Positions 28,452-44,438 of a stretch of DNA of 64,000 nt are shown piece after piece. How positions within the stretch are numbered: position 1 is the first letter of the stretch; each line of letters opens with the position of its first letter. The stretch is taken from positions 3,534,001 to 3,598,000 of the forward strand of contig NZ_HG938353.1 of NCBI RefSeq assembly GCF_000731315.1, written 5' to 3'. Both the position numbers and the translations under genes were made by a program. The notes below the pieces were generated by a model. The model saw only the letters and a list, made by a program, of their open reading frames with translations. It had not been told where the DNA came from and ran no database searches. The stretch is from Neorhizobium galegae bv. orientalis str. HAMBI 540 (GTDB taxonomy: Bacteria > Pseudomonadota > Alphaproteobacteria > Rhizobiales > Rhizobiaceae).

Positions 28452-29441
28452 ATGAACCGCCTCCTGAAGAACCGCCAAATCCTGCTCACCGTCATCATTG
28501 CCATGATGATCGTCGGCTTCGCGACACGCGCGCAGGGCTTTGCCGCTCCCGGCAATCTCGCCAATATCTTCAACGACACCTCGATCCTGATCATCCTGGC
28601 GCTCGGCCAGATGACGGTGATCCTGACCAAATCGATCGATCTTTCGGTCGCCGCCAACCTTGCCTTCACCGGCATGGCGGTCGCCATGACCAATGCCGCC
28701 TATCCCGACCTGCCGCTGGCCCTGCTCATCGTCATGGCGGTCGGCATCGGCGCCTTTCTCGGCGCGATCAACGGTTACCTCGTCTGGGTGCTGCGTATCC
28801 CGCCGATCGTCGTGACGCTTGGAACGCTGACGATCTATCGCGGCATGGCCTTCGTGCTGTCGGGCGGCGGCTGGGTGAACGCCCACCAGATGGCCCCTTC
28901 CTTCCTCAACGTCCCCCGAATGCCGGTACTCGGCCTGCCGATCCTTTCCTGGATCGCTATCCTCATCGTGCTCGGCGCCTGGTTCGTGCTGACCCGCCTG
29001 CCCTTCGGCCGGGCGGCCTATGCATCCGGTGGCAACCCGACCGCGGCGATCTATGCCGGCATCGATATCGGTTGGACCAAGTTCATCGCCTTCGTGGTGT
29101 CGGGCGCGCTCGCCGGCCTCTCCGGTTATCTCTGGGTGTCGCGTTATGCGGTCGCCTATGTGGATATCGCCGCCGGCTTCGAGCTGGATACGGTCGCGGC
29201 CTGTGTCATCGGCGGCATCTCGATCGCCGGCGGCATCGGCTCGGTCGGCGGCGCCGTGCTCGGCGCGCTTTTCCTGGGCGTCATCAAGAACGCGCTGCCC
29301 GTCATCGGCATCTCGCCATTCGCACAGATGGCGATCTCCGGCATCGTCATCGTGCTCGCCGTCGTCTTCAACGCCCGCGCCGAGCGCAAGGCCGGCCGCA
29401 TCATCCTGCGCGATCGCGGCGCGAAAGAGGTGTCCGCATGA
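28452..29441 (+). CDS. rhaP: L-rhamnose ABC importer permease (RhaP)
   Basis: A 329-residue hydrophobic CUT2 permease with 8-10 membrane segments. It contains the family motifs GEIDLSVG-like [15 protein letters not shown] and the EAA-equivalent [17 protein letters not shown]. It begins 10 bp after rhaT with a GAGG site and overlaps rhaQ by 4 bp. Confidence 0.94.
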
Positions 29442-30439
29442 GCGATGTCGTTTCCTCAAAACGGGTCATTCCCGACCGGCTCGGCAGCAAGACATCGCGC
29501 CTCCTGGCGAGCTGGGAAGTGCTGCTCTTCGGCGTGGCGGTGCTGATCTTTGTCTTCAATTCGTTCGCCTCGCCTTACTTTCTGAATGCCTGGAACCTCT
29601 CCGACGCCACCTTCAACTTCACCGAAAAGGCGATGATCGCCTTTGCCATGGCGCTGCTCGTCATCGCCGGCGAGATCGATCTGTCAGTGGCGGCGATCAT
29701 CGCGCTCGCCTCGACCGCCATGGGTGCGGCGGCCCAGGCCGGCATCGGCACGCCGGGACTGGTGGCGATCGGCATCGGCACCGGCCTTCTCTGCGGCGCG
29801 TTCAACGGCCTGCTTGTCGCCGCCCTCAGGCTGCCGTCGATCGTCGTGACCATCGGCACGATGAGCCTCTTCCGCGGCATTTCCTATATCGTGCTGGGCG
29901 ATCAGGCCTATGGCAAATATCCGGCAAGCTTCGCCTATTTCGGCCAGGGCTATGTTGCCTGGGTGTTTTCCTTCGAATTCGTACTGTTCCTCGTGTTTGC
30001 CGCAGCTTTCGGCATCCTCCTGCACGCGACGAATTTCGGCCGGCAGGTCTATGTGATCGGCAACAACGAGTTCGCGGCACGCTTTTCCGGCATTCCAGTG
30101 GAACGGGTGAAGTTCATCCTCTTCCTGTTGACCGGCGTGATGGCGGGTGTCGCATCCGTCTGCCTCACCTCCCGCCTTGGCTCGACCCGCCCCTCGATCG
30201 CCCAAGGCTGGGAACTGGAAGTCGTCACCATGGTCGTGCTCGGCGGCGTCTCCATCCTTGGCGGCGCGGGCACGATTGCCGGCGTGGTCATCGCCGCTTT
30301 CGTCATGGGCCTCGTCACCTTTGGGCTGGGCCTCCTGAACGTGCCCGGCATCGTCATGTCGATCTTCGTCGGCCTGCTTTTGATCATCACCATCGCCATC
30401 CCGATCATCGCCCGCCGCATCAAGGAAATGAGCCGATGA
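29438..30439 (+). CDS. rhaQ: L-rhamnose ABC importer permease (RhaQ)
   Basis: A 333-residue CUT2 permease partner of RhaP, with [18 protein letters not shown], several membrane segments and the cytoplasmic loop [14 protein letters not shown]. The ATG at 29438 overlaps the rhaP stop (ATGA) and its own stop overlaps rhaU, so translation of rhaP-Q-U-K is coupled throughout. Confidence 0.94.
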
Positions 30440-30756
30440 CGCTCGAAAAGCACGCCTTCAAGATGAAGCTCAATCCGGGCATGGAAGCGGAATACCGCAG
30501 ACGCCATGACGAGATCTGGCCGGAGCTTGTCGATCTCCTGCACCAGGCCGGCGCCAGCGACTATTCCATCCATCTCGACCGCGAGACGAACATTCTGTTC
30601 GGTGTGCTGACACGGCCGGCCGACCACACTCTGGCGAGCCTGCCCGACCATCCGGTGATGAAGAAATGGTGGGCGCATATGGCCGATATCATGGAATCCA
30701 ACCCGGACAATTCGCCGGTCCAGAGCGATCTGGTGACGGTGTTCCACCTGCCATGA
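30436..30756 (+). CDS. rhaU: L-rhamnose mutarotase (RhaU)
   Basis: A 106-residue RhaM/RhaU dimeric mutarotase converting alpha and beta anomers of L-rhamnose. It has the family N-terminus [34 protein letters not shown] and the C-terminal [11 protein letters not shown] containing the conserved tryptophan pair. It overlaps rhaQ and rhaK by 4 bp each. Confidence 0.95.
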
Positions 30757-32126
30757 CGATACCGGCAAAGATCGCCGTTCTCGATATCGGCAAGACCAAT
30801 GCCAAGGTTGTCGTGCTCGACTGCGCGACCGGCGAGGAGATCGCCGAAAGGCGCAGCCCGAACCGGGTTCTGCCGGGTCCACCCTATCCGCACTACGATA
30901 TCGAAGCCCTGTGGGAGTTCGTGCTCCAAGCGCTGTCCGACTTTGCAAAACAGCCCGGGTTCGACGCGATCTCCATCACCACCCACGGCGCATCGGCGGT
31001 GCTTCTCGATGCCGAGGGTGGACTGGCCCTGCCGGTGCTCGATTACGAGCACGAGTATCCGGAAGACATCCGCAGGGCCTATCAGTTGATCCGCCCGCCC
31101 TTTTCGGAAACCTTCTCGCCGTCCCTCTCCGGTGGGCTGAATGTCGGCGCCCAGCTTCACTACCAGAAGACCGCCTTTCCTGAAGCCTTTGCCCGCGTCC
31201 GCACCATCCTCACCTATCCGCAATATTGGGCGTTCAGGCTGACCGGTGTCGCGGCGAACGAAGTTACCTCGCTCGGCTGCCACACCGATCTCTGGCTCCC
31301 ACGTGAAGGCGCCTATTCTCCGCTGGTGGATACGCTCGGCATCCGCGACCTGATGGCCCCGGTCCATTCGGCCTTCGAGACGCTCGGTCCTCTCCTGCCA
31401 AGCATTGCGGCGCAGATCGGAACGACGAAACCGATCCCGGCCCATTGCGGCATCCACGATTCCAACGCTTCGCTGCTGGCTCATCTGGTGGGACGCGAGC
31501 CGCCCTTCGCGGTCGTCTCCACCGGCACCTGGGTCATCAATTTCGCGGTCGGCGGCGACCTCGACCATCTCGATCCGCAGCGCGACGCGCTTGCCAATGT
31601 AGATGCCTATGGCCGCGCCGTGCCCTCGAGCCGCTTCATGGGCGGGCGCGAATTCGAGATGCTGACGGCCGAACTCGGTCCATTGTCGCCGGACGCGGCG
31701 CTTGCAGCCATTCCTCATGTCATCGAAAAAGGCCTGACGCTTCTGCCGAACGTTTCAGGCGGCTCCGGCCCCTTCCCGGCCCATCAGCAGCAATGGGTCA
31801 ACGACATAGAAGTCTCGACCGACCAGCGCTGGGCGGCCGCCTGCCTCTACCTCGCGCTGATGACGGAGACCTGCCTCGACCTCATCGGCACCAAGGGACC
31901 GGTTCTGGTCGAAGGCCCTTTCTCGACCAACCCGGCCTATCTTCAGGCGCTGACAGCTCTGCTTGGCCGCCAGGTTGTCGCCCTCCCCGGCTCGACGGGC
32001 ACCAGCCAGGGTGCAGCGCTTCTGGCCGGCATTTCGCCGAACACCAAGCCCGGCCGCGCCGTGCCCGCGCCATCCTGGGACGTTGCAGCCTATCGCACCG
32101 CCTGGCACGAAAGGCTGGAGCGCTGA
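30753..32126 (+). CDS. rhaK: L-rhamnulose kinase, FGGY family (RhaK)
   Basis: A 457-residue FGGY-family carbohydrate kinase. The N-terminal phosphate-binding motif is [16 protein letters not shown], followed by [20 protein letters not shown] and the C-terminal ATP-binding [14 protein letters not shown]. It phosphorylates L-rhamnulose (rhizobial RhaK also acts on rhamnose). The ATG at 30753 overlaps the rhaU stop. It is the last gene of the operon; its stop is immediately adjacent to the convergent GntR gene end at 32127, leaving no room for a terminator. Confidence 0.95.
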
Positions 32127-32897
32127 TCAGCCCGCGCTGGCCGGCCGCCGGTTGCGGCGAAGGCGCCGGCCGGTCTGCTCCTCAAGCGCATTTTCCAGAA
32201 TGCCGAGACGCCGCTCGGTAATATTGGCAATCTGCGCCGGGTCGCCGGCTTCGATCGCCTGCATCATGGTCTCGACCAGTTCGAGCGACAGGACGAGGTC
32301 GGCGCGGGTATGCAGCGTCCCGTGCCGCATCGGCTCAACCCATTGCAGCAGCAGTTCCATCAGTTCCAGCACGAGGCCATTGCGGGTCGCCCGTGCCAGG
32401 GCGAGGTCGAAGCGCATCGAAGCGATGATGATCGAGCTGATGTGCTCGGGGCTGCTTTTGGTCACCTCCGGCGGCGGCAGCGAATCCCGGCCGAACCGGA
32501 TTGCCTCCCGCATCCGGTCGAAATCCGCATCCTCGGCATATTGCGAGGCGATCTGCGCCACCCAGGGCAGGATCAGCCGGCGCACCTCGATCGCCTCGTC
32601 GATATCGCCCGGTCGCATGTCGGGCCTCGATACGATCAGGTCGAGCGGCACGATCTCGCTGCTGACGAACGTGCCGCCGCCGGCGCCTGGCCTGACGGTC
32701 AGAATGTTCGCCTCGACCAGCAGCTTCACCGCCTCGCGCACGGTCGGGCGGCTGACCTGCATCTGCTCGGCAATGCTGCGTTCGGAGGGAAGGCGGGAAC
32801 CGAGCCGAAAAAACCCGGTCCGGATGGCGTCGGCAAGCCGGCGCGCGACCTCTTCGTTCGGAAGCAGCACTTTGACGGGCTGAAAATGTCGGTCCAC
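32127..32897 (-). CDS. GntR-family regulator, FadR subfamily
   Basis: A 256-residue regulator: N-terminal winged helix with LGSRLPSERSIAEQMQVSRPTVREAV, and a C-terminal all-helical FCD domain (VRRLILPWVAQIAS and a histidine-containing metal/ligand pocket). The start is taken as GTG 32897 because AGGAGG lies 5 bp upstream; a GTG two codons earlier would overlap that site. It is 17 bp downstream of the FAD-linked oxidase gene in the same direction and so probably controls that operon in response to a hydroxyacid such as lactate or glycolate (inference from FadR-type LldR/GlcC relatives). Confidence 0.88.
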   Translation of the reverse strand: MDRHFQPVKVLLPNEEVARRLADAIRTGFFRLGSRLPSERSIAEQMQVSRPTVREAVKLLVEANILTVRPGAGGGTFVSSEIVPLDLIVSRPDMRPGDIDEAIEVRRLILPWVAQIASQYAEDADFDRMREAIRFGRDSLPPPEVTKSSPEHISSIIIASMRFDLALARATRNGLVLELMELLLQWVEPMRHGTLHTRADLVLSLELVETMMQAIEAGDPAQIANITERRLGILENALEEQTGRRLRRNRRPASAG

Positions 32898-32914
32898 CAG
32901 CACCTCCTATCCGC

Positions 32915-34306
32915 TCAGACGGAAAGCACTTTGCCGGTATTCAGAATGTTGTTGGGATCGAGCGCCAGCTTGATACGCGCCATCAGCGCCAGCTCCTCCG
33001 GCGTGCGCGACAGCTTGAGATACGGCTTCTTCAGGAGGCCGATCCCGTGTTCGGCGGAAATCGTGCCGCCTTCGCGCGCAATCGAGCCGAAGACGAGTTC
33101 GGTGATCTCCTTGTGCGGCTGGTCGTTGCCGGCAGACGGAATGTTGCAGACGAGATGCAGGTTGCTGTCGCCGATATGGCCATAGCTCAGCGCAATCGCG
33201 TCCGGCCAGCGGACCTTCATCGCGGCTTCGATCTCGTCGACCACCCGGCCGGCGGCGCTGGTCGGCAGGCCGACGTCGAAGGCGGTCAGCGGTCCCATCA
33301 GCTTGCCGTATTCGGATACGCTCTCGCGCACCGCCCAAAGGTCCTTGGTCTCGCGCTCCGAAGATGGCAGAACCGCATCGGAAACCCAGCCGGCTTCGAG
33401 CGCATCCGACAGCACCTGCTCCAGCAGCGCCCGGTTTTCTTCGGCATTGCGCCCGCCGGTTTCGATCAGCACATAGATCCCGTGCGGCTCCTTGAAGGCG
33501 CGGCGCAGGTCAGGAAGCTTACCCGTCATGAAGTCGTAAAAGCTCGGCCACATCACCTCGAACGAGGTCAGCGCCGAGCCCATGCCCTGGCGAGCGCTCT
33601 TTAGGAGCTCCAGAAGCGAAGGAAAATCCGGGCAGCCGCAGAAGGCGCTGGCGAGTTCCGCGGGCTTCGCCTGCAGCCGCAGCACGGCGCGGGTGATGAC
33701 GCCGAGCGTGCCTTCCGAGCCGATGAAAAGCTGCTTCAGGTCATAGCCCGCATTGTTCTTCAGCATCTTGTTCAGTGATCTGACGATCGTGCCGTCCGGC
33801 ACCACCACTTCGAGGCCCAGCACATGCTCGCGCGCCATGCCGAACCGGATGACGCGATTGCCGCCAGCATTGGTGGCAAGGTTGCCGCCGATGACGCAGG
33901 AATCGCGGGCGCCGAGATCGAGGCCGAAGAACAGCCCCACCTCTTCCGCCTTCGCCTGGATGACGCTGAGCGGCGTGCCCGCCAGAACCGTCATCGTCGC
34001 CATCACCGTATCGACTTCCTCGATACCGTTCATGCGGTCGAGCGACAGCGCCACGCCATTTTCGATCGGCCGTGCCCCGCCGGCAAGGCCGGTCAACCCA
34101 CCCTGCGGCACGACCGGCACCTTGAACTCGTTGCAGAGGCGCAGCGTCACCGAGACCTGCTCCGTCGTGCGCGGCCGCACCAAAGCCAGCGGTATGACCG
34201 GAGAAAGACCGCCCCAATCGTTGTGGAAGCGGACAGGAATATCCTCACCGAAAAAGACATCGGGAGCGAGTTCGCGCTGGAGCGCCTGGATGAATTCATG
34301 CGTCAT
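32915..34306 (-). CDS. FAD-binding 2-hydroxyacid dehydrogenase (GlcD / D-lactate dehydrogenase family)
   Basis: A 463-residue flavoprotein. The PCMH-type FAD-binding domain has VVPQGGLTGLAGGA, GGNLATNAGGNRVIRFGM and FIGSEGTLGVIT. The C-terminal GlcD domain contains YGHIGDSNLHL and ISAEHGIGLLKKPYL. Family members oxidise D-lactate, glycolate or D-2-hydroxyglutarate and pass electrons to the respiratory chain. The ATG at 34306 is preferred because AGAGGT precedes it. It is cotranscribed with the GntR regulator. Lactate from rhamnose breakdown is a plausible substrate by proximity, though that lactate is L-configured, so glycolate or D-lactate remains open. Confidence 0.88.
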   Translation of the reverse strand: MTHEFIQALQRELAPDVFFGEDIPVRFHNDWGGLSPVIPLALVRPRTTEQVSVTLRLCNEFKVPVVPQGGLTGLAGGARPIENGVALSLDRMNGIEEVDTVMATMTVLAGTPLSVIQAKAEEVGLFFGLDLGARDSCVIGGNLATNAGGNRVIRFGMAREHVLGLEVVVPDGTIVRSLNKMLKNNAGYDLKQLFIGSEGTLGVITRAVLRLQAKPAELASAFCGCPDFPSLLELLKSARQGMGSALTSFEVMWPSFYDFMTGKLPDLRRAFKEPHGIYVLIETGGRNAEENRALLEQVLSDALEAGWVSDAVLPSSERETKDLWAVRESVSEYGKLMGPLTAFDVGLPTSAAGRVVDEIEAAMKVRWPDAIALSYGHIGDSNLHLVCNIPSAGNDQPHKEITELVFGSIAREGGTISAEHGIGLLKKPYLKLSRTPEELALMARIKLALDPNNILNTGKVLSV

Positions 34307-34360
34307 GAAAAGCATACCTCTGGAGGCCATTGATAAATGGTAAGCCTAACTGCCATCTTC

Positions 34361-34520: not shown

Positions 34521-36095
34521 TCAGCGCAAGGCCCCGGCCACGCGCTTCTGTTCGTCCTTCATGAAGGCGATGTCGCCGACGACCCGGACGCGCACCCGCC
34601 GCGCGTCACCCGGCAGATAGGCGATCGGGATATCCTCGGTGTCGAGCGTCACGATCGTATCGGGGCTGGCGCCCGCTTCGACCGCACGGGCGCGGGCAAT
34701 GCGCTCGGCCTCGGCAATCGCCTTTTCGCGCGACATGCCGGAAAACACCTGATCGACTTCGCCGGACACCTGCGCCATCGCCGCGCCGAGCGCGTTCGCG
34801 ACACCGGCATGCTCGACGCGCAGCACTTCGCTCGCACCTTTGAGCTTTTCCGGGATCAGGAAGGCGCCACCGCCGACAGCGATCAGTTGGACACCCTCGG
34901 CCGAAGTCTTCATCCGGTCGACGCCGTCTTCCACCATCGCCTCGACGCGCTTCAGAAGGTCGGCAACCAGCGCCTTGTCGAGATGCTTGACCCGGTCGCG
35001 GTCGCCGATCTCGACGAGGCCCGCAGCCACCGCCACGTCGGTCGTCGTCAGCGTATCCCCGCCGAAGACCAGCGCCTTTTCGGTGATCCGGTAGCCGACC
35101 GAACGCGGGCCGATCTTGCGGGTGTCCGGATCGATGATCGTGCCGCCGCCGAGCGCCATCGGCAGCAGGTCCGGCATGCGGAACAGCGTGCGCACGCCGC
35201 CGACCTCGACGACATTGTTCGCCTCGCGCGGAAAGCCGCCGACCAGGCAGCCGACATCCGAGGTCGTGCCGCCGACGTCGATGACCATCGCCTCCTTGAG
35301 ACCGGTCAGGAACGCCGCGCCACGCATCGAATTGGTCGGGCCGGAGGCAAAGCTGTAAACCGGGTTGGCGGCCGCGACATCCGCCAGCACCACCGTGCCG
35401 TCGTTCTGGGTCAGATAGAACGGCGCGTCGATGCCGGCTTGCTTCAGCGCATCCTTGAAGGCGTCGATCGTCTTGCGGCCGAGCCCCTGCAGGGCAGCGT
35501 TCAGAAGCGTGACGTTCTCACGTTCCAGAAGGCCGATACGGCCGAGCGTGTGGGACAGCGTGATACGCGCGTTCGGGATCACCGAGCGGACGATCTCGGC
35601 CGCTTCCAGCTCGCATTCCGCCGTCAGCGGCGAAAAGAGCGCGGTGATGCCGACCGAATCGACGCCGGCGTCGCGGATCTTCATCGCCGCGTCGCGCACT
35701 TCGTCGCGGGCGAGCGGCACCAGCGGCCGGCCGTCATATTCGTGGCCGCCGTGCACCATGAAGGTGAGCGGATCGACGGCATCGCGCAACTCATCCGGCC
35801 AGTCGACCATCGGCGGCAGGGAAGCCCCGGCCGGCATGGCGATGCGGATCGCCGCGATCCGATCGAGACGGGCACGCTCGACCACCGCATTGGTGAAATG
35901 CGTCGTGCCGATCATCACCGCATCGACCGGTGCCGAACCCGGCGCCTGCGAGGCGACCACATGGCCGATCGCATTGACCACGCCCTGCATCACGTCCGAC
36001 GTGGTGGGAAACTTGATGGCCGAGAGAACCTTCTCGCCATCGATGAGCACGGCATCCGTATTGGTGCCGCCGACGTCAATTCCGATCCGCTTCAT
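34521..36095 (-). CDS. Hydantoinase/oxoprolinase-family protein (HyuA-like, short form)
   Basis: A 524-residue HyuA-type ATPase-fold protein. It begins GIDVGGTNTDAVLIDG and carries a second phosphate-binding motif VIDVGGTTSDVG and the FASGPTNSMRGAAF segment. It is shorter than ~690-residue N-methylhydantoinase A subunits, matching the subgroup encoded with DUF917 proteins. Its start overlaps the DUF917 gene end by 4 bp. Probable role: ATP-dependent opening of a hydantoin- or lactam-like ring (family inference). It has no HyuB partner here. Confidence 0.86.
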   Translation of the reverse strand: MKRIGIDVGGTNTDAVLIDGEKVLSAIKFPTTSDVMQGVVNAIGHVVASQAPGSAPVDAVMIGTTHFTNAVVERARLDRIAAIRIAMPAGASLPPMVDWPDELRDAVDPLTFMVHGGHEYDGRPLVPLARDEVRDAAMKIRDAGVDSVGITALFSPLTAECELEAAEIVRSVIPNARITLSHTLGRIGLLERENVTLLNAALQGLGRKTIDAFKDALKQAGIDAPFYLTQNDGTVVLADVAAANPVYSFASGPTNSMRGAAFLTGLKEAMVIDVGGTTSDVGCLVGGFPREANNVVEVGGVRTLFRMPDLLPMALGGGTIIDPDTRKIGPRSVGYRITEKALVFGGDTLTTTDVAVAAGLVEIGDRDRVKHLDKALVADLLKRVEAMVEDGVDRMKTSAEGVQLIAVGGGAFLIPEKLKGASEVLRVEHAGVANALGAAMAQVSGEVDQVFSGMSREKAIAEAERIARARAVEAGASPDTIVTLDTEDIPIAYLPGDARRVRVRVVGDIAFMKDEQKRVAGALR

Positions 36096-37171
36096 GCTGC
36101 AAACACCGATTTGAAATCCAGGTCATATCCGAAGGCGCGCGGGCCGACATGTTCGAGGCCCTTGGCGCTGGTCAGCACGTCAGGTGCCGGCAGCGCCACG
36201 ACCGTGACGCGCTGGCCGTACCGCACCGTCTCGGTGCCGATCGCTTCACCCGACACCGTGTCGAGCAGGCAGATCAGGTCCGGCGTCATGGCGATCGGCT
36301 GGCCGTCGCGGAAGGCGACCGCCCATTCATTCTGGAAGGCGAGCTCGACCTTCGAGCCGCGATCGTCGTCGAGGCCTTCGATCATCGCCGAACCGCGCAG
36401 GAAGCCGCCCGTCGTGGTACGGTCGACATCGGCGATCTTGCCCTTGAACAGCACCTTGCCGCCTTCATGGGCGAGCACGGCCTCGACCGGATCAGTGTGG
36501 GCGGCGCGGGCCTCAAGCACGGCGCGGCCGAGGCTGACCGCCTTGGTGACCGTGTAAAGCACGCCCCAATCCTTGACTTCCCGGCCGGTGCGCGGCGCCT
36601 TGCAGGTCGCCGCCGTCGAACCGACCTCGGTGCAGATCTTGCGGGAAATCCGTTCCATCCACTTCCAGGACGCGGCCTTGGCGACGATCGCCTCGTTGTC
36701 GCGGCAATCGACCAGCGTCAGCGGATACATCGGCAGGTCGCCGATCGCAAAGCTCGTCATCTGCGCTTCCGGATAGGCGCGGCCCATCGCATCCGCATCG
36801 ACGACCGGGATGTCCAGCATGGCGCCGGCGAGGAACGGCGACAGCGCATTGCCGCCGCCGATCTCCACGCTCATCACGGCGCGGAACTTGCGGCCGGTAT
36901 ATTCTTCCATCAGCTGCATGGCCCGGGCGAGATGCGCGGGATCGACGAGGCGCTCCTGGCCAACCAGCGGCGCACCCATCTTGGAGACGACCGCGACGGC
37001 ATCGCCGTCATCGAGCGCCTGGGGATCGATCAGCTTGACGCGCTTGCCGTCCTTGTAGAGTTTTTTCAGGTTGAGCTGCGCCAGATAGGGGCTGCCGCCG
37101 CCGCCGGTGCCGAGAATCCAGGCGCCAACGGCAAGCGGGTCGATCTCGCCCGCTTCGAAATCACGGATCAT
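36092..37171 (-). CDS. DUF917 (S-Me-THD-like) domain protein
   Basis: A 359-residue DUF917 family protein: N-terminal GAWILGTGGGGSPYLA, central EIGGGNALSPFLAGAMLDIPVVDADAMGR-type region, and a C-terminal beta-rich domain ending LDFKSVFAA. A characterised relative, as I recall it, removes sulfur from a thiohydantoin in ergothioneine breakdown; most members have no known reaction and are encoded beside HyuA-like proteins, as here. It is the first gene of a two-gene minus-strand operon divergent from the AroM-LuxR regulator, sharing a 145-bp intergenic region that carries a palindromic box. Confidence 0.85.
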   Translation of the reverse strand: MIRDFEAGEIDPLAVGAWILGTGGGGSPYLAQLNLKKLYKDGKRVKLIDPQALDDGDAVAVVSKMGAPLVGQERLVDPAHLARAMQLMEEYTGRKFRAVMSVEIGGGNALSPFLAGAMLDIPVVDADAMGRAYPEAQMTSFAIGDLPMYPLTLVDCRDNEAIVAKAASWKWMERISRKICTEVGSTAATCKAPRTGREVKDWGVLYTVTKAVSLGRAVLEARAAHTDPVEAVLAHEGGKVLFKGKIADVDRTTTGGFLRGSAMIEGLDDDRGSKVELAFQNEWAVAFRDGQPIAMTPDLICLLDTVSGEAIGTETVRYGQRVTVVALPAPDVLTSAKGLEHVGPRAFGYDLDFKSVFAA

Positions 37172-37225
37172 GTTTACCTCCGAAGAATGTGCTAGAACCT
37201 AGCCATGAGTGACGAAGGATGCCTA

Positions 37226-37241
37226 TAGGGGACTGCCCCTA
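37226..37241. promoter_or_regulatory. Candidate LuxR-type operator TAGGGG-N4-CCCCTA (copy 1)
   Basis: TAGGGGACTGCCCCTA, with perfect 6-bp arms, followed by GAGTGA. It sits between the DUF917 gene (55 bp away) and the AroM-LuxR gene (about 75 bp to its ATG). An almost identical box, followed by TAGTGA, precedes the stand-alone aroM gene. Confidence 0.7.
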
Positions 37242-37316: not shown

Positions 37317-38273
37317 ATGTCGAAGAGCCCATATGCGCTGGCCCCGACCTCGCCGGAAGGTGCGGAACCGCACCACCGGGTGATGTTCCTGAGCGTCGGC
37401 CAGACGCCGCGTGCCGATCTCATCGGGGACATGCTGACCAATCTCGACGTATCCATCGAAGCTCTCGAAATCGGCGCGCTGGACGGGCTTTCCAAGGCAG
37501 AAATCGACGATCTGAAAGTGCGGCCGGGCGAACAAAGCATCATCACCCGGCTTGCCGACAATACCGATATCGTCGTGTCCAAACCGCGGATCGCCGAGCG
37601 CATGGCGAAGATCGCCGCCGCCTTCCACCCCAATGAATTCGATCTGGTCGTCATCCTCTCGACCGGCCTGTTTCGCGATTTCGAAAGCACCTGCCCGACA
37701 GTCAACGCCCAGCGCGCCATGGAATCGGCGGTGATTTCGCTCGCCGCGCATGGCGCTTCCGTCGGTCTCATCCAGCCGCTGCAGCAGCAGATCGCCGAAC
37801 TCGATATCCCGGCGCTGGCGCCCTACAAGATCTGCGCCAGCTATGCCGCCGACGGCGACCGGAAACTGCTTGCCGGCGCGCTCGTCGATCTCGCCGATGC
37901 GGAAATCATCGTCCTGAATTCCGTGAGCTTTACCGAGGCCGACCGGCAGATGGTCGCGAAGGCAAGCGGCAAGCCGGTGGTTCTCGCCCGCCGCATCGTC
38001 GCAAGCGCCATCCGGCTTCTCCTGCACCGTTCGCAGCCCGTGACGCTGCCGGGCGTTTCGCCGGAATTTGCGGAAAAGCTTCTGCGTCTGACGCCGCGTG
38101 AGCGGCAGGTCCTGTCATTGGTGGCGGAAGGCCTGTCCAACAAGGCGATCGCCCGCCAGCTCGGCATCAGCCCGAAGACGGTCGAGATCCACCGCTCGAA
38201 CGTCATGAGCAAGATGGAAGTCACCTCTTCCAATGCGCTGATCCGCATGGTCATCTCCGCCGGCCATCCCTGA
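37317..38273 (+). CDS. AroM domain fused to a C-terminal LuxR-type DNA-binding domain (putative regulator)
   Basis: A 318-residue protein. Residues ~20-235 form an AroM domain: signature SVGQTPRADLIGDM near residue 26, LVVILSTGLFRDF, and a final PVVLARRIVASAIR resembling the end of stand-alone AroM. Residues ~258-318 are a LuxR/FixJ helix-turn-helix (LTPRERQVL, GLSNKAIARQLGISPKTVEI). There is no receiver domain. I infer the AroM part senses a small ligand. ATG 37317 is taken as the start; an in-frame TTG at 37287 has no ribosome-binding site, and AAGGA lies a rather long 14 bp before the ATG. It is divergent from DUF917 and HyuA-like genes and followed by aroM and an importer operon. Confidence 0.88.
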   Translation: MSKSPYALAPTSPEGAEPHHRVMFLSVGQTPRADLIGDMLTNLDVSIEALEIGALDGLSKAEIDDLKVRPGEQSIITRLADNTDIVVSKPRIAERMAKIAAAFHPNEFDLVVILSTGLFRDFESTCPTVNAQRAMESAVISLAAHGASVGLIQPLQQQIAELDIPALAPYKICASYAADGDRKLLAGALVDLADAEIIVLNSVSFTEADRQMVAKASGKPVVLARRIVASAIRLLLHRSQPVTLPGVSPEFAEKLLRLTPRERQVLSLVAEGLSNKAIARQLGISPKTVEIHRSNVMSKMEVTSSNALIRMVISAGHP

Positions 38274-38366: not shown

Positions 38367-38382
38367 TAGGGGCATTACCCTA
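38367..38382. promoter_or_regulatory. Candidate LuxR-type operator TAGGGG-N4-ACCCTA (copy 2)
   Basis: TAGGGGCATTACCCTA, five of six arm positions paired, followed by TAGTGA. It lies 66 bp upstream of the aroM start, about the same distance as copy 1 from the AroM-LuxR start. The overlapping TATAGT at 38381-38386 could be a -10 hexamer. Confidence 0.68.
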
Positions 38383-38448
38383 TAGTGAAGCCGCGCTTCC
38401 GGGCGTTAGGCTCCCTGTCGATAATGCCGTGCAGGGAACGATGAGAGC

Positions 38449-39129
38449 ATGCCTTCCACATCCAAGATCGCCTTCGTGACCATCGGCCAGACGCCGCGTA
38501 TCGACGTCGTCCCGGAAATGATGACCGAGATCTGCATCGGCCTGCCGGAAGGCCGCGTCGAGTTCCGCGAATTCGGCGTGCTTGACGGCCTGAACCTGGC
38601 TGAACTGGACGCGATGCGGGCCGTGGACGGCGAACATTCCTTCGCGACGCGCCTGAAGAGCGGGCAGGAGATCGTCACCTCCAAGGCCCGGACGGAAGAG
38701 AAACTCAATGTGCTTCTGGGCCAGATCGACAAGCAGGGCTTCGACCTCGTCGTTCTTCTGTGCACCGGCACGGCGATCGATCCGCTCGAAAACACCCTGG
38801 TCGTCGAAGCTCAGCGGATCGTCGATTCGACCGTCGAGGCGCTGGCCGCCTCCTCCCGCAAGCTCGGCGTCATCCTGCCGCTCGAACGGCAGGTCAAGGA
38901 TTTCGCCGATCGCCATGTCTTCAGCGGCGAGCCCAAATTCGTGGCCGCCTCGCCCTATGCCGGCGACGATATGGGTGAGCGGGCGAAGACGCTCGAAGGC
39001 TGCGACCTTATCGTCATGCATTGCATGGGCTATTCCGCCGGAATGCTGGACGAGGTGCGACGCGCGGTCGATGCCCCGGTCCTATTGTCGCGCCGCGTCG
39101 TCGCGGGCGTCGTCCGCCAAATGATCTGA
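38449..39129 (+). CDS. AroM family protein
   Basis: A 226-residue stand-alone AroM protein, the usual family length. The N-terminal signature is VTIGQTPRIDVVPEM, with the central LVVLLCTGTAIDPL and C-terminal PVLLSRRVVAGVVRQMI. The E. coli namesake is encoded beside aroL and has no established activity; the fold appears related to Asp/Glu racemases (inference). It is the first gene of the importer operon, 32 bp before the binding-protein gene. Its resemblance to the N-terminal domain of the upstream regulator suggests both bind the same or related ligands. Confidence 0.88.
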   Translation: MPSTSKIAFVTIGQTPRIDVVPEMMTEICIGLPEGRVEFREFGVLDGLNLAELDAMRAVDGEHSFATRLKSGQEIVTSKARTEEKLNVLLGQIDKQGFDLVVLLCTGTAIDPLENTLVVEAQRIVDSTVEALAASSRKLGVILPLERQVKDFADRHVFSGEPKFVAASPYAGDDMGERAKTLEGCDLIVMHCMGYSAGMLDEVRRAVDAPVLLSRRVVAGVVRQMI

Positions 39130-39161: not shown

Positions 39162-40754
39162 ATGTTCGGAAAAATCCTGAAAACCGTCGCGGTCGCGGGG
39201 CTGCTCGCCTCCTCGATCCTCGCCGCGCCCGCCGGCGCTTTCGAGCGCACCGACAAGGGCAATGTCATCGTCTTCGGCGGCCGCCAGGCGATCCCCGTCC
39301 TCGATCCGCATGTCCGCTACGACTGGTCGACGCGCATGATCCAGCAGTCGGTCTATGACGGCCTGGTCAAATACGAAGGCAACCCGGCCGAGATCAAGCC
39401 ATGGCTCGCCGAGAAGTGGGAAACCAGCGCCGACGGTAAGAGCTGGACCTTCCACCTTGCCAAGAATGCCAAATTCCACAACGGCGACCCGGTGACCGCC
39501 GAAGCCGTACGCTACTCCTTCGAGCGCGGCCTGAAGCTCAACAAGGGCGTCGCCTGGATGCTCAAGGACTTCCTGGCACCTGAAAACATCGTCGCCGTCG
39601 ATGCCAATACGGTCCGCTTCGACCTCAGGGCGCCCTACGCACCTTTCCTGTCCTTCCTGCCCTGGTGGTTCGTCGTCAACCCGGCGGAAGTGAAGGCCCA
39701 TGAAGTGGATGGCGACTACGGCCAGAAGTGGCTGACCGACCATGCCGCCGGCTCCGGCCCGTTCAAGCTCGGCCGCTGGGAACCGAACGTTCTCTATGAA
39801 ATCGAAGCCAATGACGGCTACTGGAAGGGTTGGCCGCAGGGCGAAAAGAACCGCCCGGCCGGCGTCATCTACAAGATCATCCGCGAACCGGCCGCCCAGA
39901 AGGCCGCCCTGCAGCGCGGCGAAGCCGACATCGTCGAAGGTCTGACGCCGGACGACTACATCCAGATCAAGCGCGTACCCGGCGTGGTCATCCAGGACCA
40001 CAAGGGCATGACCACCTTCGGCATCAAGTTCAACACCCAGAAGGGCCCGACCGCCGACATCAACCTGCGCAAGGCGATCGCCTATGCGGTCGATTACGAT
40101 GCGCTGATCCAGATCTACAACGGCGCTGCGTCGCTCGAGAGCAGCCCGCTGCCGGACGCCATGAAGGGCTTCGTCTCCGTTCCGGGCATCCCCCGCAAGG
40201 ATCTCGCCAAGGCCAAGGAATACCTGGCGAAATCCGCCTACCCGAACGGCGGCATCACGCTTCCCTACGTCCATGTCGCCGGCCTCGAAGAAGCCCGCCG
40301 CATCGGCCTCGTCCTGCTCGACAACCTGAAGGAACTCGGCATCACCGTCGAGGTCAAGCCGGAACAGTGGCCGAACATGGTCGCCGCCGGTTCCAAGGTC
40401 GAGACTTCGCCGGCCATGACCTCGGTCTTCACCACACCGGTCTCGACCGACCCGGACGCCGTCGCCTACCAGTATCACAAGGCGAGCTGGGGCCAGTATT
40501 ACGCGATGATGTTCTACGACAATCCGAAGGTCTCGGAGATGATCGACCAGGCCCGTGCCGCCACCAACTGGGATGACCGCGCCAAGCTTTATGCCGACAT
40601 CCAGAAGCAGATCGTCGCCGACCAGCCGGAGGTCTTCGGCATGCTGCAGAACCGCCGCTGGGCGCATCGCGACTATCTGCAGGGCTTCCAGTTCAGCCCG
40701 GTCCGCTTCACCGGCGAAGTCGATCTTTACCCGATGTGGGTGAAGGCCGAATAG
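39162..40754 (+). CDS. ABC importer periplasmic solute-binding protein (family 5)
   Basis: A 530-residue DppA-type periplasmic binding protein. Signal peptide residues ~1-25 (MFGKILKTVAVAGLLASS..., cleavage after APAGAF). Family motifs include YDGLVKYEGNPAEIKPWLAE, FHNGDPVTAEAV, AGSGPFKLGRWEPN and LRKAIAYAVDYDAL. The ATG at 39162 has GAGGGA 6 bp upstream. It lies between aroM and the permeases, so the ligand is probably the compound processed by the DUF917/HyuA-like/AroM proteins. A hairpin with a T-run follows. Confidence 0.93.
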   Translation: MFGKILKTVAVAGLLASSILAAPAGAFERTDKGNVIVFGGRQAIPVLDPHVRYDWSTRMIQQSVYDGLVKYEGNPAEIKPWLAEKWETSADGKSWTFHLAKNAKFHNGDPVTAEAVRYSFERGLKLNKGVAWMLKDFLAPENIVAVDANTVRFDLRAPYAPFLSFLPWWFVVNPAEVKAHEVDGDYGQKWLTDHAAGSGPFKLGRWEPNVLYEIEANDGYWKGWPQGEKNRPAGVIYKIIREPAAQKAALQRGEADIVEGLTPDDYIQIKRVPGVVIQDHKGMTTFGIKFNTQKGPTADINLRKAIAYAVDYDALIQIYNGAASLESSPLPDAMKGFVSVPGIPRKDLAKAKEYLAKSAYPNGGITLPYVHVAGLEEARRIGLVLLDNLKELGITVEVKPEQWPNMVAAGSKVETSPAMTSVFTTPVSTDPDAVAYQYHKASWGQYYAMMFYDNPKVSEMIDQARAATNWDDRAKLYADIQKQIVADQPEVFGMLQNRRWAHRDYLQGFQFSPVRFTGEVDLYPMWVKAE

Positions 40755-40861: not shown

Positions 40862-41869
40862 ATGTTGACATTCGCCTTCCGCAAAGTGCTGACGCTGGTC
40901 GGAACCATGATCGGCATTGCGGCACTCACCTTCGTCATCACCAATGTCGCGCCGGGCGATCCCGCCCGCCTGGTCGCCGGCCCCAACGCGACCGAGGACA
41001 TGGTGACGACGATCCGCACCGAATACGGCCTCGACAAGTCGCTGCCCGAACAGTTCGTCGTCTATATGGGCGACCTCATCACCGGCGATCTCGGCAAGTC
41101 GATCGTCACCACGAGGCCGGTGCTGGAAGAAGTGCTGCGTTATGCGCCGGCAACGCTGGAACTGGTCTTCGTCGCCATGACGCTCGGCATCGTCATCGGC
41201 GTGCCGCTGGGCATGGTGTCGGCCGTCTACAAGGACGGCCCGATCGACCACGCGACCCGCATCTTCTCGATCTCGGGCGTCGCTCTGCCGGCCTTCTGGT
41301 TCGGCATCATCCTGCAGCTGACATTCGCGGTCGATCTCGGCTGGCTGCCGGTCTCCGGCCGGCTGCCGCTGGTCACCCGCCCGCCGCAAACCGTTACCGG
41401 CCTGCTCCTCGTCGACAGCCTGTTCGCCGGCCGGCTGGATACGTTCTGGACGTCGCTGCGGCACATCATCCTTCCGGCAATCGTGCTCTCCTTCCCCTGC
41501 CTTGCCTCGATCCTGCGCGTCAACCGCGCCGAGATGATCGAAGTGCTGCAGTCCGACTACATCGTCGCGGCACGCGCCCACGGCATCGCCTCGTTCCGCA
41601 TCGTCGCCATCTACGCGCTGAAGAACGCGCTGCTGCCGACGCTTGCGATGATCGGCCTGCGTTTCGGCTGGATGCTCGGCTCCACCGTTCTCGTCGAAAC
41701 CGTCTTCGACTGGCCCGGCATCGGGCTTTATGCCGTCTCCTCGGCGCTTTCATCGGATTTCAAGCCCGTCATCGGCGTCACGCTGGTGATCGGCTTCTTC
41801 TTCATCGTCGCCAACACCCTTGTCGATCTCGCCTATGCGTGGATCGATCCCCGCCTCAGGAGCGCCTGA
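40862..41869 (+). CDS. Dipeptide-type ABC importer permease (DppB-like)
   Basis: A 335-residue inner-membrane permease: N-terminal segment LTLVGTMIGIAALTFVITNVAPGDP, further membrane segments, an EAA loop near DYIVAARAHGIASF and C-terminal AWIDPRLRSA. GGAG lies 7 bp upstream of the ATG. Its stop shares one base with the start of the DppC-like gene. Confidence 0.94.
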   Translation: MLTFAFRKVLTLVGTMIGIAALTFVITNVAPGDPARLVAGPNATEDMVTTIRTEYGLDKSLPEQFVVYMGDLITGDLGKSIVTTRPVLEEVLRYAPATLELVFVAMTLGIVIGVPLGMVSAVYKDGPIDHATRIFSISGVALPAFWFGIILQLTFAVDLGWLPVSGRLPLVTRPPQTVTGLLLVDSLFAGRLDTFWTSLRHIILPAIVLSFPCLASILRVNRAEMIEVLQSDYIVAARAHGIASFRIVAIYALKNALLPTLAMIGLRFGWMLGSTVLVETVFDWPGIGLYAVSSALSSDFKPVIGVTLVIGFFFIVANTLVDLAYAWIDPRLRSA

Positions 41870-42780
41870 TGACGACGCCCGTGGAACTCTCCCGGCCGCT
41901 CACCTTCCGCGAACGGCATGAAAGCAAGATCCGCCAGTGGCGGCTCTATGCCCACATGTTCGGCAAGAGCTTTTCCTCCATGCTCGGCCTCGGCCTGGTC
42001 GTGCTCTTCCTGTTGCTTGCCGCTCTCGGACCATGGCTTGCGCCCTATCCGGAAGATACGGTCGGCGCCTTCAACATGGCCAACAAGCTGATGGGACCGA
42101 GCGCCGGCCACTGGTTCGGCACCGACGAAATGGGCAGCGACATCCTTTCGCGCGTCATCATCGGTGCCCGCACGTCGCTCTGGATCGGCCTGATCATCAC
42201 CGGCGTCGGCGCCGTCATCGGCGTGCCGCTCGGCATCATCGCCGGTTATCGCGGCGGCTGGGTGCGCGCCGTCATCATGCGCATCACGGAGCTTTTCCTC
42301 GCCGTGCCGGGCTTGGCTCTCGCGCTGGCGATCGTCGCCGCGCTTGGCCCCGGCATCACCAATTGCGTGCTGGCTCTGTCGCTCGTCTGGTGGCCTGGTT
42401 ATGTGCGGCTGGTGGAGGCGAAGACCCTCTCCGTTAAGGAGGAACTGTTCGTGGAATCGGCCCGCTCGATCGGCGCCAAAACTCCGTGGATCCTCTGGCA
42501 CCACATCCTGCCCAACTGCATGTCGCCGATCATCGTCAAGATGAGCATGGACATGGGTATGGCGATCCTGTCCGCCGCAAGCCTCGGCTTCATAGGCCTT
42601 GGCGCCCAGCCGCCCGCACCCGAATGGGGCGCGATGATCTCGGTCGCCCGCACCTACATGCCGGACTGGTGGTGGTATTCGCTGTTTCCGGGTGCCGCGA
42701 TCTTCCTGACCGTGCTCGGCTTCAACCTTCTCGGCGACGGCCTGCGCGACATTCTCGATCCCCGGAGCCGCGACCGATGA
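41869..42780 (+). CDS. Dipeptide-type ABC importer permease (DppC-like)
   Basis: A 303-residue permease with WFGTDEMGSDILSRV after the first membrane segment, GLGAQPPAPEWGAMI near the C-terminus and the terminal GDGLRDILDPRSR. The ATG at 41869 overlaps the preceding stop (TGATG) and its own end overlaps the ATPase gene (ATGA). Confidence 0.94.
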   Translation: MTTPVELSRPLTFRERHESKIRQWRLYAHMFGKSFSSMLGLGLVVLFLLLAALGPWLAPYPEDTVGAFNMANKLMGPSAGHWFGTDEMGSDILSRVIIGARTSLWIGLIITGVGAVIGVPLGIIAGYRGGWVRAVIMRITELFLAVPGLALALAIVAALGPGITNCVLALSLVWWPGYVRLVEAKTLSVKEELFVESARSIGAKTPWILWHHILPNCMSPIIVKMSMDMGMAILSAASLGFIGLGAQPPAPEWGAMISVARTYMPDWWWYSLFPGAAIFLTVLGFNLLGDGLRDILDPRSRDR

Positions 42781-44438
42781 CCGGACCTCTTCTCGACATC
42801 CAGAACTACAGGCTCGACATCGGCACGTTCGACGGCCCGGTGCATGTGCTGAAGGACATTAACCTCACCGTCAACCGCGGCGATACGCTCGGCATCGTCG
42901 GCGAAAGCGGCTCCGGCAAGACGGTGCTGGTGCGCTCGGTGCTCGGCATCGGACCGAAGGCATCCAAGGTCGTCCAGGGCAACATCGCCTTCGACGGGCA
43001 GGATATCACGGCACTTTCGGAAAAAGACTGGAGGAAGATCCGCGGCATCCGAATCTCGATGATCTTCCAGGATCCGATGACCTATCTGAACCCGCTCTTC
43101 ACCATCGGGCAGCAGATCTCCGACGTCATCGCCGCCCATGAAAAGGCAGCCGGTCACGGCGTCTCCTCGAAGGCCACCCGCCGCGCCCGGACCGAAGACC
43201 TGCTCGATCAGGTCGGCCTGCCCAACCCGGCGATGTTGTTCGACCAGTATCCGCACCAGCTTTCCGGCGGCATGCGCCAGCGGGTGCTGATCGCCATGGC
43301 GCTGTCCGGCAAGCCGGACCTGCTGATCGCCGACGAGCCGACGACGGCGCTCGACGTCACGGTCCAGGCGCAGGTGCTCGACCTCATCAATTCGCTGGTC
43401 GAGAAACTCAACCTCACCGTCATCATGATCAGCCACGATATCGGCGCCATCGCGACGATCGCGAAACGCTGTGCGGTCATGTACAAGGGCGAGATCGTCG
43501 AACAGGGCCTGACAGCGGATATCCTGAGCGCCCCGAAACACGAATACACAAAGCGGCTGCTCGCCGCCGTGCCGGACATCGATACCGCTGCGGCGAAGGT
43601 CGCCGCCGAACCGGCGGTCGGCAAACCGGCCAAACCGGGCGTGCTTCTGGAAGCGATCGACCTCAAAAAGGTCTATCGCAGCCAATCGGGCAGCGAGGTG
43701 ACGGCGGTCGACGGCATCAACCTGTCTGTCGCGACCGGCGAGATCTTCGGCGTGGTCGGCGAATCCGGCTCCGGCAAGTCGACGCTCGCCCGCATGCTGC
43801 TGCGGCTGATCGAGCCGACCTCCGGCGACATCATCTTCGACGGCAGGAACATTTCCGGCCTGACCGGCGAGCCCATGCGGTTGATGCGCCGGCATATGCA
43901 GTTCGTCTTCCAGAACCCGCATTCGGCGCTCAACGGCCGCCACACGATCGGTGACGCGATCGGCGAACCGCTGCGCATCCAGACAAGCATGGGCCGTCGT
44001 GACATCGAGGCCCGCGTCGAAGCGCTGCTCGATATCGTCCAGCTGCCGAAAATGTTCAAGTACCGCTATCCGCACGAACTCTCCGGCGGCCAGAAGCAGC
44101 GCATCTGCATCGCCCGTGCCATCGCCCTCAATCCACGCCTGCTGATCCTCGACGAACCGACTTCGGCGCTCGACATCTCGGTGCAGGCGCAGGTGCTTGA
44201 TTTCCTGCAGGAACTGCGCGCCGAGCTCGATCTCACCTATGTCTTCATCTCGCACAACCTCGCCGTCATCCGGCAGATCTGCGACCGGACCATCGTGATG
44301 AAACGCGGCGTGATCGTCGAACAGGGCGAGACTGAACGCCTTTTCCTGTCGCCGCAGCACGAATACACCAGGGCGCTGATCGAAAGCGGACGTAAAACCT
44401 CGCGCGCGGCCAACTTGTCGGCCCCCGCCGGCTCGTGA
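42777..44438 (+). CDS. Dipeptide-type ABC importer ATPase with two fused ATP-binding domains
   Basis: A 553-residue DppD-DppF fusion. Domain 1: Walker A GESGSGKTV, signature LSGGMRQR, Walker [13 protein letters not shown]. Domain 2: Walker [10 protein letters not shown], signature LSGGQKQR, Walker B LILDEPTSALD. An alanine/proline-rich linker (~residues 265-290) joins them. It is the last gene of the aroM-importer operon. It has the same architecture as the ATPase at 1-1698, so one chain supplies both nucleotide-binding sites. Confidence 0.94.
   Translation: MTGPLLDIQNYRLDIGTFDGPVHVLKDINLTVNRGDTLGIVGESGSGKTVLVRSVLGIGPKASKVVQGNIAFDGQDITALSEKDWRKIRGIRISMIFQDPMTYLNPLFTIGQQISDVIAAHEKAAGHGVSSKATRRARTEDLLDQVGLPNPAMLFDQYPHQLSGGMRQRVLIAMALSGKPDLLIADEPTTALDVTVQAQVLDLINSLVEKLNLTVIMISHDIGAIATIAKRCAVMYKGEIVEQGLTADILSAPKHEYTKRLLAAVPDIDTAAAKVAAEPAVGKPAKPGVLLEAIDLKKVYRSQSGSEVTAVDGINLSVATGEIFGVVGESGSGKSTLARMLLRLIEPTSGDIIFDGRNISGLTGEPMRLMRRHMQFVFQNPHSALNGRHTIGDAIGEPLRIQTSMGRRDIEARVEALLDIVQLPKMFKYRYPHELSGGQKQRICIARAIALNPRLLILDEPTSALDISVQAQVLDFLQELRAELDLTYVFISHNLAVIRQICDRTIVMKRGVIVEQGETERLFLSPQHEYTRALIESGRKTSRAANLSAPAGS

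Follow-up and report, generated by a model that had tools for sequence, protein, structure and literature searches.

An AroM domain fused to a FixJ-type DNA-binding domain in Neorhizobium galegae: a probable one-component regulator with a cysteine-less, racemase-like sensor

What does an AroM domain do when it is joined, on a single polypeptide, to a DNA-binding domain? This question is raised by a gene located at positions 37,317 to 38,273 of a 64,000-nucleotide stretch of the Neorhizobium galegae bv. orientalis str. HAMBI 540 genome (contig NZ_HG938353.1; this whole stretch is referred to as the window), the product of which we call the fusion. A previous reading of the DNA alone (the original prediction) had described it as an AroM domain followed by a LuxR/FixJ-type helix-turn-helix (HTH) and had proposed it as a possible new class of regulator. 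Our analysis favors, with a probability of about 0.68, a one-component activator that responds to a ligand through a racemase-fold sensor devoid of the cysteine pair, and that would control the uptake and processing of a ring compound.

The fusion architecture is genuine. The open reading frame on the forward strand extends over 318 amino acids (328 from an alternative TTG start situated 30 bases upstream of 37317) without interruption, and encodes an AroM domain (PF07302, 134.5 bits against a Pfam cut-off of 23.8, residues 24-233) followed by a GerE domain (PF00196, 83.1 bits against a cut-off of 23.5, residues 258-312); the VGQTPRAD and ILSTG signatures recognized in the original prediction were both found in the protein. 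We also scored 7997 candidates in a homologue search, which returned 626 proteins at E ≤ 0.001. Both domains were present, according to Pfam labels and purpose-made hidden Markov models (HMMs), in 119 of the 120 best-scoring entries listed—the first of which is the window's own protein—and a frame or assembly artefact, a concern raised at the outset, is therefore excluded. Where the source provides a name, these homologues are called, for instance, 'AroM family protein' or members of the 'DNA-binding NarL/FixJ/CsgD family'. The sole AroM-only entry among the 120 (P0119, a Neorhizobium sp. DAR64861/K0K2 protein record) shows 76% identity over 62% of the query and has an end deviating from the family, perhaps being a truncated fusion. 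In another record (L051:10001-10902), the fusion gene was matched as two overlapping pieces and seems to be frame-broken or misassembled.

Neither a receiver nor an autoinducer-binding domain was found in the fusion among the Pfam families listed at E ≤ 0.001, in agreement with the original prediction, which sets the protein apart from two-component response regulators and from LuxR quorum-sensing receptors, respectively. With a sensor and a DNA-binding output on the same chain, both in the Pfam assignment and in the AlphaFold2 model, the protein has the architecture of a one-component regulator. The closest PDB match of its HTH was FixJ (1x3u, 62.7 bits), and the NCBIfam model for FixJ yielded 78.2 bits, under its cut-off of 255. 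The AroM equivalog model PRK10481 (NCBIfam, cut-off 198) gave 123 for the fusion and 173.4 for the free AroM protein encoded next to it, i.e., values below the threshold in both cases.

The sensor domain differs from free AroM proteins at two sites in particular. Cysteines were counted in the best-scoring lists, i.e., 120 of the 626 fusion-search hits (comprising 119 fusions) and 120 of the 456 free AroM hits. All 120 listed free AroM proteins carried a cysteine at both sites (C105 and C192 in the free AroM of the window)—the arrangement expected of a racemase with a catalytic cysteine pair, one per half—whereas none of the 119 listed fusions had a cysteine at either. We cross-checked this pattern in 33 aligned sequences from genomes sampled by family, leaving out duplicates (L001, L002, L068, L073 and L075) and one sub-threshold sequence (L074). 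Here, 9 of 9 fusions were devoid of cysteine at both sites (first site: Ser in 7 and Met in 2; second site: Ser in 8 and Ala in 1), 16 free AroM proteins had both cysteines, and all seven enterobacterial-type free AroM proteins (L077-L080 and L082-L084) had Ser at the first site and Cys at the second. The loss of one cysteine is thus tolerated in the free protein, and two-base racemase activity may not apply to these enterobacterial members. In the fusions the second cysteine is missing as well, in every case examined, which makes a two-cysteine racemase mechanism impossible. The last of the 33 sequences, a divergent, fragmentary AroM-like stretch (L067/L096 in genome G035, 39 bits), with no GerE domain detectable by HMM, has Ser at both sites.

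Despite these replacements, much of the pocket is kept. Residues common to the fusion and free AroM include G28, P31, R32, D34, T116, G117, Q132 and R133, together with G150, P154, Q158, R225 and R226, and the fusions preserve the pocket motifs GQ[ST]PRxD, [ST]TG, QR and an RR close to the domain end. This shared set of conserved residues suggests, at the sequence level, that binding was kept and catalysis lost.

Structure prediction places the two sites in a familiar setting. In the AlphaFold2 model of the fusion (predicted local distance difference test score, 89.2; predicted template modeling score, 0.69), both directly follow strands (110-114 and 197-200), as they do at equivalent places in the free AroM model (100-103 and 187-190); we take them to be the acid/base catalytic positions of the Asp/Glu/hydantoin racemase superfamily. 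The fusion sensor adopts the fold of this superfamily, and its best structural matches were hydantoin and allantoin racemases (2eq5 and 5lfd) at sequence identities of 13-14%, while for the free AroM the model was compatible with maleate isomerases as well as with Asp/Glu/hydantoin racemases. By family the fusion belongs with AroM, but its active-site residues are not those of a racemase, and the sensor is probably a dead racemase. No solved structure of a free or fused AroM was found by sequence, the profile search returning chance matches alone, and the PrpR sensor domain (2pju) was discarded as a relative (Foldseek template modeling score of 0.28 on the query, too weak for use).

If the fusion is a regulator, which DNA does it recognize? 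The two palindromic boxes noted in the original prediction (TAGGG-N6-CCCTA; Table 1) flank the fusion gene on both sides, and they constitute the only exact matches in the 6,455,027-base genome. In the window, 0.01 matches would be expected by chance, and two were reached in none of 100 shuffles; with one mismatch allowed, 19 further genome places were found for the box, as compared to 156 for a reversed control pattern. We also explored a set of 44 loci, mostly from Rhizobiales, with some from Methylobacterium, Rhodobacterales and metagenome-assembled genomes. In 42 loci, the best match had 0, 1, 2 or 3 mismatches in 22, 9, 9 and 2 cases for the region between the DUF917 and fusion genes, and in 26, 8, 4 and 4 cases for the region between the fusion and AroM genes. 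Shuffling (4200 sequences per region set) produced no exact match, and matches with at most one mismatch in 0.4% and 0.3% of the sequences, respectively; none of 1511 random windows from the same loci had fewer than 2 mismatches. Among more divergent loci, L093 retains the box with 1 mismatch, as L088 and L048 may do with 2 mismatches each. Taken together, the conservation of the boxes marks them as likely target sites of the fusion.

The surroundings of the boxes are equally regular. A TANNNT element was found 23 or 24 bases past the box in 32 of 33 distinct sequences on the DUF917 side (16 at each distance) and in all 34 distinct sequences on the AroM side (32 of them with a gap of 24), with frequencies under 40% at any other scanned offset. 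If TANNNT is taken as the -10 element, both promoters would have the box centered near -44.5, a position typical of class-II activators. At spacers of 16-18, no promoter had a TTGACA element with fewer than 2 mismatches, and 18 of 66 had one with 2. Control of the fusion gene by its own product through box 1, with this spacing, was considered and rejected, as no conserved TANNNT was found on the fusion-gene side.

Where did the fusion come from? A tree of 109 AroM domains, built after taking the two cysteine columns out of the alignment, placed the 47 fusions on one side of a single branch (Shimodaira-Hasegawa-like approximate likelihood ratio test value, 89), opposite 62 free AroM domains. 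The tree was obtained by a quick method with no bootstrap and with long branches flagged; it is most simply, though tentatively, read as the outcome of a single fusion event. The genome of N. galegae has two AroM genes, i.e., the fusion and the adjoining free AroM. In an even sample at the class level, AroM was found in 15 of 385 genomes, with at least one fusion, as recognized by HMMs, in 9 of these 15 (the N. galegae genome included) and two fusions in one of the genomes (G342); in an even sample at the phylum level, AroM was found in 14 of 398 genomes and the sole fusion was the window's own. The one same-genus and 15 same-family genomes listed in the latter sample had no fusion, which indicates a patchy distribution of the cluster.

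The genes surrounding the fusion provide clues as to the compound in question. As originally described, a free AroM gene and an importer adjoin the fusion gene, the latter being of the dipeptide ATP-binding cassette (ABC) type; we further found that the unit includes divergently oriented DUF917 and HydA genes which, along with the loss of both cysteines and an apparently single fusion event, goes beyond the original prediction. The entire arrangement (HydA-DUF917 on one side, fusion-AroM-importer on the other) is kept in 42 or 43 of the 44 loci, depending on the gene, and in Rhizobiales loci the fusion gene sits between both operons. The exceptions are L050, the record of which begins 17 bases before the fusion (DUF917 and HydA); L049, the record of which ends right after the fusion (free AroM and importer); and L048, with a different ABC system; HydA is cut off by the contig end in L015. 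In eight further divergent fusion loci (sensor about 32-51% identical), HydA and DUF917 were present in 8 of 8, and a family-5 solute-binding protein and a free AroM in 6 of 8 each.

Table 1. Features of the fusion locus, in window coordinates
Feature	Position	Strand	Remarks
HydA-like hydantoinase/oxoprolinase protein	34521..36095	-	PF05378, PF01968; 43/44 loci
DUF917 / S-Me-THD-like protein, divergent from fusion	36092..37171	-	PF06032, PF20906; 43/44 loci
-10-like TAGGTT, for DUF917-HydA	37196..37201	-	24 bases from box 1; putative -10 role
Box 1, TAGGGGACTGCCCCTA	37226..37241		Between DUF917 gene and fusion gene; TAGGG-N6-CCCTA
Fusion regulator gene	37317..38273	+	AroM sensor residues 24-233, linker, FixJ-type GerE/LuxR HTH 258-312; Pfam
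Ser115 codon	37659..37661	+	Site of free-AroM C105; listed fusions (n=119): Ser 111, Thr 8, Cys 0
Ser202 codon	37920..37922	+	Site of free-AroM C192; listed fusions: Ser 119/119
Box 2, TAGGGGCATTACCCTA	38367..38382		Upstream of free AroM gene; TAGGG-N6-CCCTA
-10-like TAGGCT, for AroM-importer	38407..38412	+	24 bases from box 2; putative -10 role
Free AroM, Cys C105 + C192, probable isomerase or racemase (sequence and model)	38449..39129	+	PF07302, 178 bits; 43/44 loci
Family-5 solute-binding protein of importer	39162..40754	+	PF00496; 42/44 loci
ABC permease 1	40862..41869	+	PF00528, PF19300; 42/44 loci
ABC permease 2	41866..42780	+	PF00528, PF12911; 42/44 loci
ABC ATPase, two ATPase domains	42777..44438	+	PF00005 in two stretches; 42/44 loci

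Genes farther to the left were rejected as members of the unit. Positions 32127-34330 of the window, between the rhamnose-like and fusion units, encode a GntR/FCD regulator and a GlcD-like flavin adenine dinucleotide (FAD) oxidase, with the FAD oxidase found next to the fusion cluster in 4 and GntR in 3 of the 44 loci. Positions 28452-32126, with two rhamnose-type ABC permeases, a small rhamnose-mutarotase-like protein and a sugar kinase, presumably represent a rhamnose operon; these genes adjoin the fusion cluster in close relatives alone.

With regard to the substrate, genes encoding AroM and DUF917 proteins, hydantoin racemases and peptide ABC importers are enriched near cyclodipeptide oxidase genes, according to PMC11055893, which also describes AroM proteins as lacking experimental characterization. 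These associations, together with the neighboring genes, point to a cyclic amide of peptide or hydantoin origin as the probable substrate. A thiohydantoin is not specially indicated, since the NCBIfam thiohydantoin desulfurase models scored far under their cut-offs on the DUF917 protein (122.1 vs. 450 and 98 vs. 440). DUF1177 and peptidase S51 genes lie between DUF917 and the fusion in L089 (4062-5743), hinting at a peptide-derived substrate. In a Salipiger locus (L048:4669-11833), a nitroreductase-family protein (two matched stretches), which may be a fused cyclodipeptide-oxidase-like enzyme, is encoded together with AroM, DUF917, HydA, the fusion and a second free AroM, as well as with another ABC importer.

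How might these parts work together? In the mechanism that we infer, a free AroM protein of the Asp/Glu/hydantoin racemase fold would have acquired a FixJ-type HTH, probably in a single event, with both presumed catalytic cysteines replaced by Ser or another non-Cys residue and the remaining pocket motifs retained; with the pocket dead but its motifs kept, the sensor most likely binds a pathway compound without turnover. The ligand-bound dimer would occupy the boxes at 37226 and 38367 and, centered about -44.5 from the predicted starts, would aid RNA polymerase at both operons (class-II activation). The unit thus controlled would import a small peptide-like ring compound, which free AroM would isomerize and DUF917/HydA would open. 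The imported compound may be hydantoin-like or cyclic-dipeptide-like, and the ligand class is the weakest step of the model. A more specific proposal—an undescribed activator family with a cysteine-less racemase pseudoenzyme as sensor, arising from a single fusion in Alphaproteobacteria and detecting a cyclic amide with a ring of five or six members (resembling a hydantoin or thiohydantoin, or derived from a diketopiperazine) as the substrate of the DUF917/HydA/AroM pathway—stands evenly balanced between being right and wrong.

Several observations weigh against this account. In the models, the fold does not name a ligand, as the top structural ranks are near ties within about 1 Z. The reversed control pattern had 5 exact matches in the genome, so two exact matches are unremarkable by themselves, and the weight lies on the location and conservation of the boxes instead of their bare count. 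These conservation counts come from related loci and are not independent events. The box was not recognizable beyond chance in L050, L052 and L053, which together with L048 (2 mismatches, no better than chance) are the most divergent of the 44 loci, nor in six of the eight further divergent loci (L089-L092, L094 and L095); the HTH has likewise diverged in loci with no recognizable box. (By eye, a half-site TACGTA followed by TTT recurs 5' of DUF917 or the solute-binding protein gene in L090-L092, and may be a diverged box.) Two genomes (G168 and G265) have a fusion and a free AroM nowhere, which means that the sensed compound need not be the AroM substrate. Finally, a weak -35 element is possible, given the 18 promoter sequences 2 mismatches away from TTGACA.

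This last point, along with boxes that span about -37 to -52, close to where a -35 region is presumed, and the fact that LuxR-type proteins are able to repress, could indicate a repressor—the unliganded fusion blocking both promoters from the boxes until the ligand frees them. However, the same activator-like geometry occurs at two promoters, none of which comes closer than 2 mismatches to the -35 consensus, and FixJ-type domains are mostly activators; activation is accordingly preferred, and we consider repression unlikely. More doubtful still is the idea that the AroM part remains an enzyme, or serves as a mere dimerization scaffold, with protein contact, abundance or some other signal exerting the control. 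The tolerance of a single cysteine loss in enterobacterial AroM (Ser at the first site in 7 of 7) and the many pocket motifs retained would fit such a role, but the second site is lost too, in the listed fusions as in the family-sampled check, and conserved pocket residues are at odds with a simple scaffold. We regard as least probable that the boxes serve another regulator and that the fusion does not control the cluster. The connection between the fusion and the boxes is drawn from sequence, and the box was unseen in several divergent fusion loci; yet the palindrome suits a dimeric HTH of the class found in the fusion, the exact box occurs in the genome beside the fusion gene alone and travels with it, and the fusion gene lies between both operons in Rhizobiales loci. 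A ligand-responsive activator acting on the unit is hence the reading that we retain.

This reading bears implications for AroM proteins at large. The fusion offers a handle on AroM, as a regulator most likely binding a pathway compound, with two boxes usable as a reporter. With such a reporter, inducers could be screened and the substrates of AroM, DUF917 and HydA would become directly testable; if a family of cyclic-amide-sensing activators does exist, the inducer would reveal the substrate of three families with no settled function. Moreover, a cysteine-bearing free AroM and a cysteine-less sensor form a natural paralogue pair at one locus—a clean case of an enzyme fold turned sensor.

How does the fusion compare with known systems? 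In the open-licence literature, no characterization of an AroM-GerE fusion was found, which is not proof of absence. The fusion resembles FixJ/NarL response regulators in its C-terminal HTH, with the AroM domain replacing the receiver. It shares the fold and most conserved motifs with the AroM family (PF07302; the neighboring free AroM and E. coli AroM), differing by the added HTH and the loss of both cysteines, and it is structurally similar to hydantoin/allantoin racemases (2eq5 and 5lfd), although the cysteine pair seen in free AroM is missing. The cyclodipeptide-oxidase clusters of PMC11055893 combine the same enzyme families with peptide-type ABC importers—a link echoed by the nitroreductase-family gene beside the fusion cluster in L048—whereas the term LuxR does not occur in that article and a GerE-type fusion is not discussed there. 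A parallel in kind is BzdR, in which, according to PMC3602430, the effector domain derives from shikimate kinase and the loss of catalysis is needed for good regulation. BzdR likewise couples an enzyme-derived, non-catalytic sensor to an HTH and governs catabolic pathway genes; the fusion, to judge by its residues, also has an enzyme-related effector domain with no catalytic residues. The two differ in their components: a shikimate-kinase fold, an N-terminal XRE-type HTH and benzoyl-CoA as the ligand in BzdR, as opposed to a racemase (AroM) fold and a C-terminal FixJ-type (GerE) HTH in the fusion. With an enzyme-derived, inactive sensor already known in a one-component regulator, the 'new class' of the original prediction is too strong as to kind, even if the fusion itself is uncharacterized in the literature covered; the fusion is an under-described variant of a kind already represented by BzdR.
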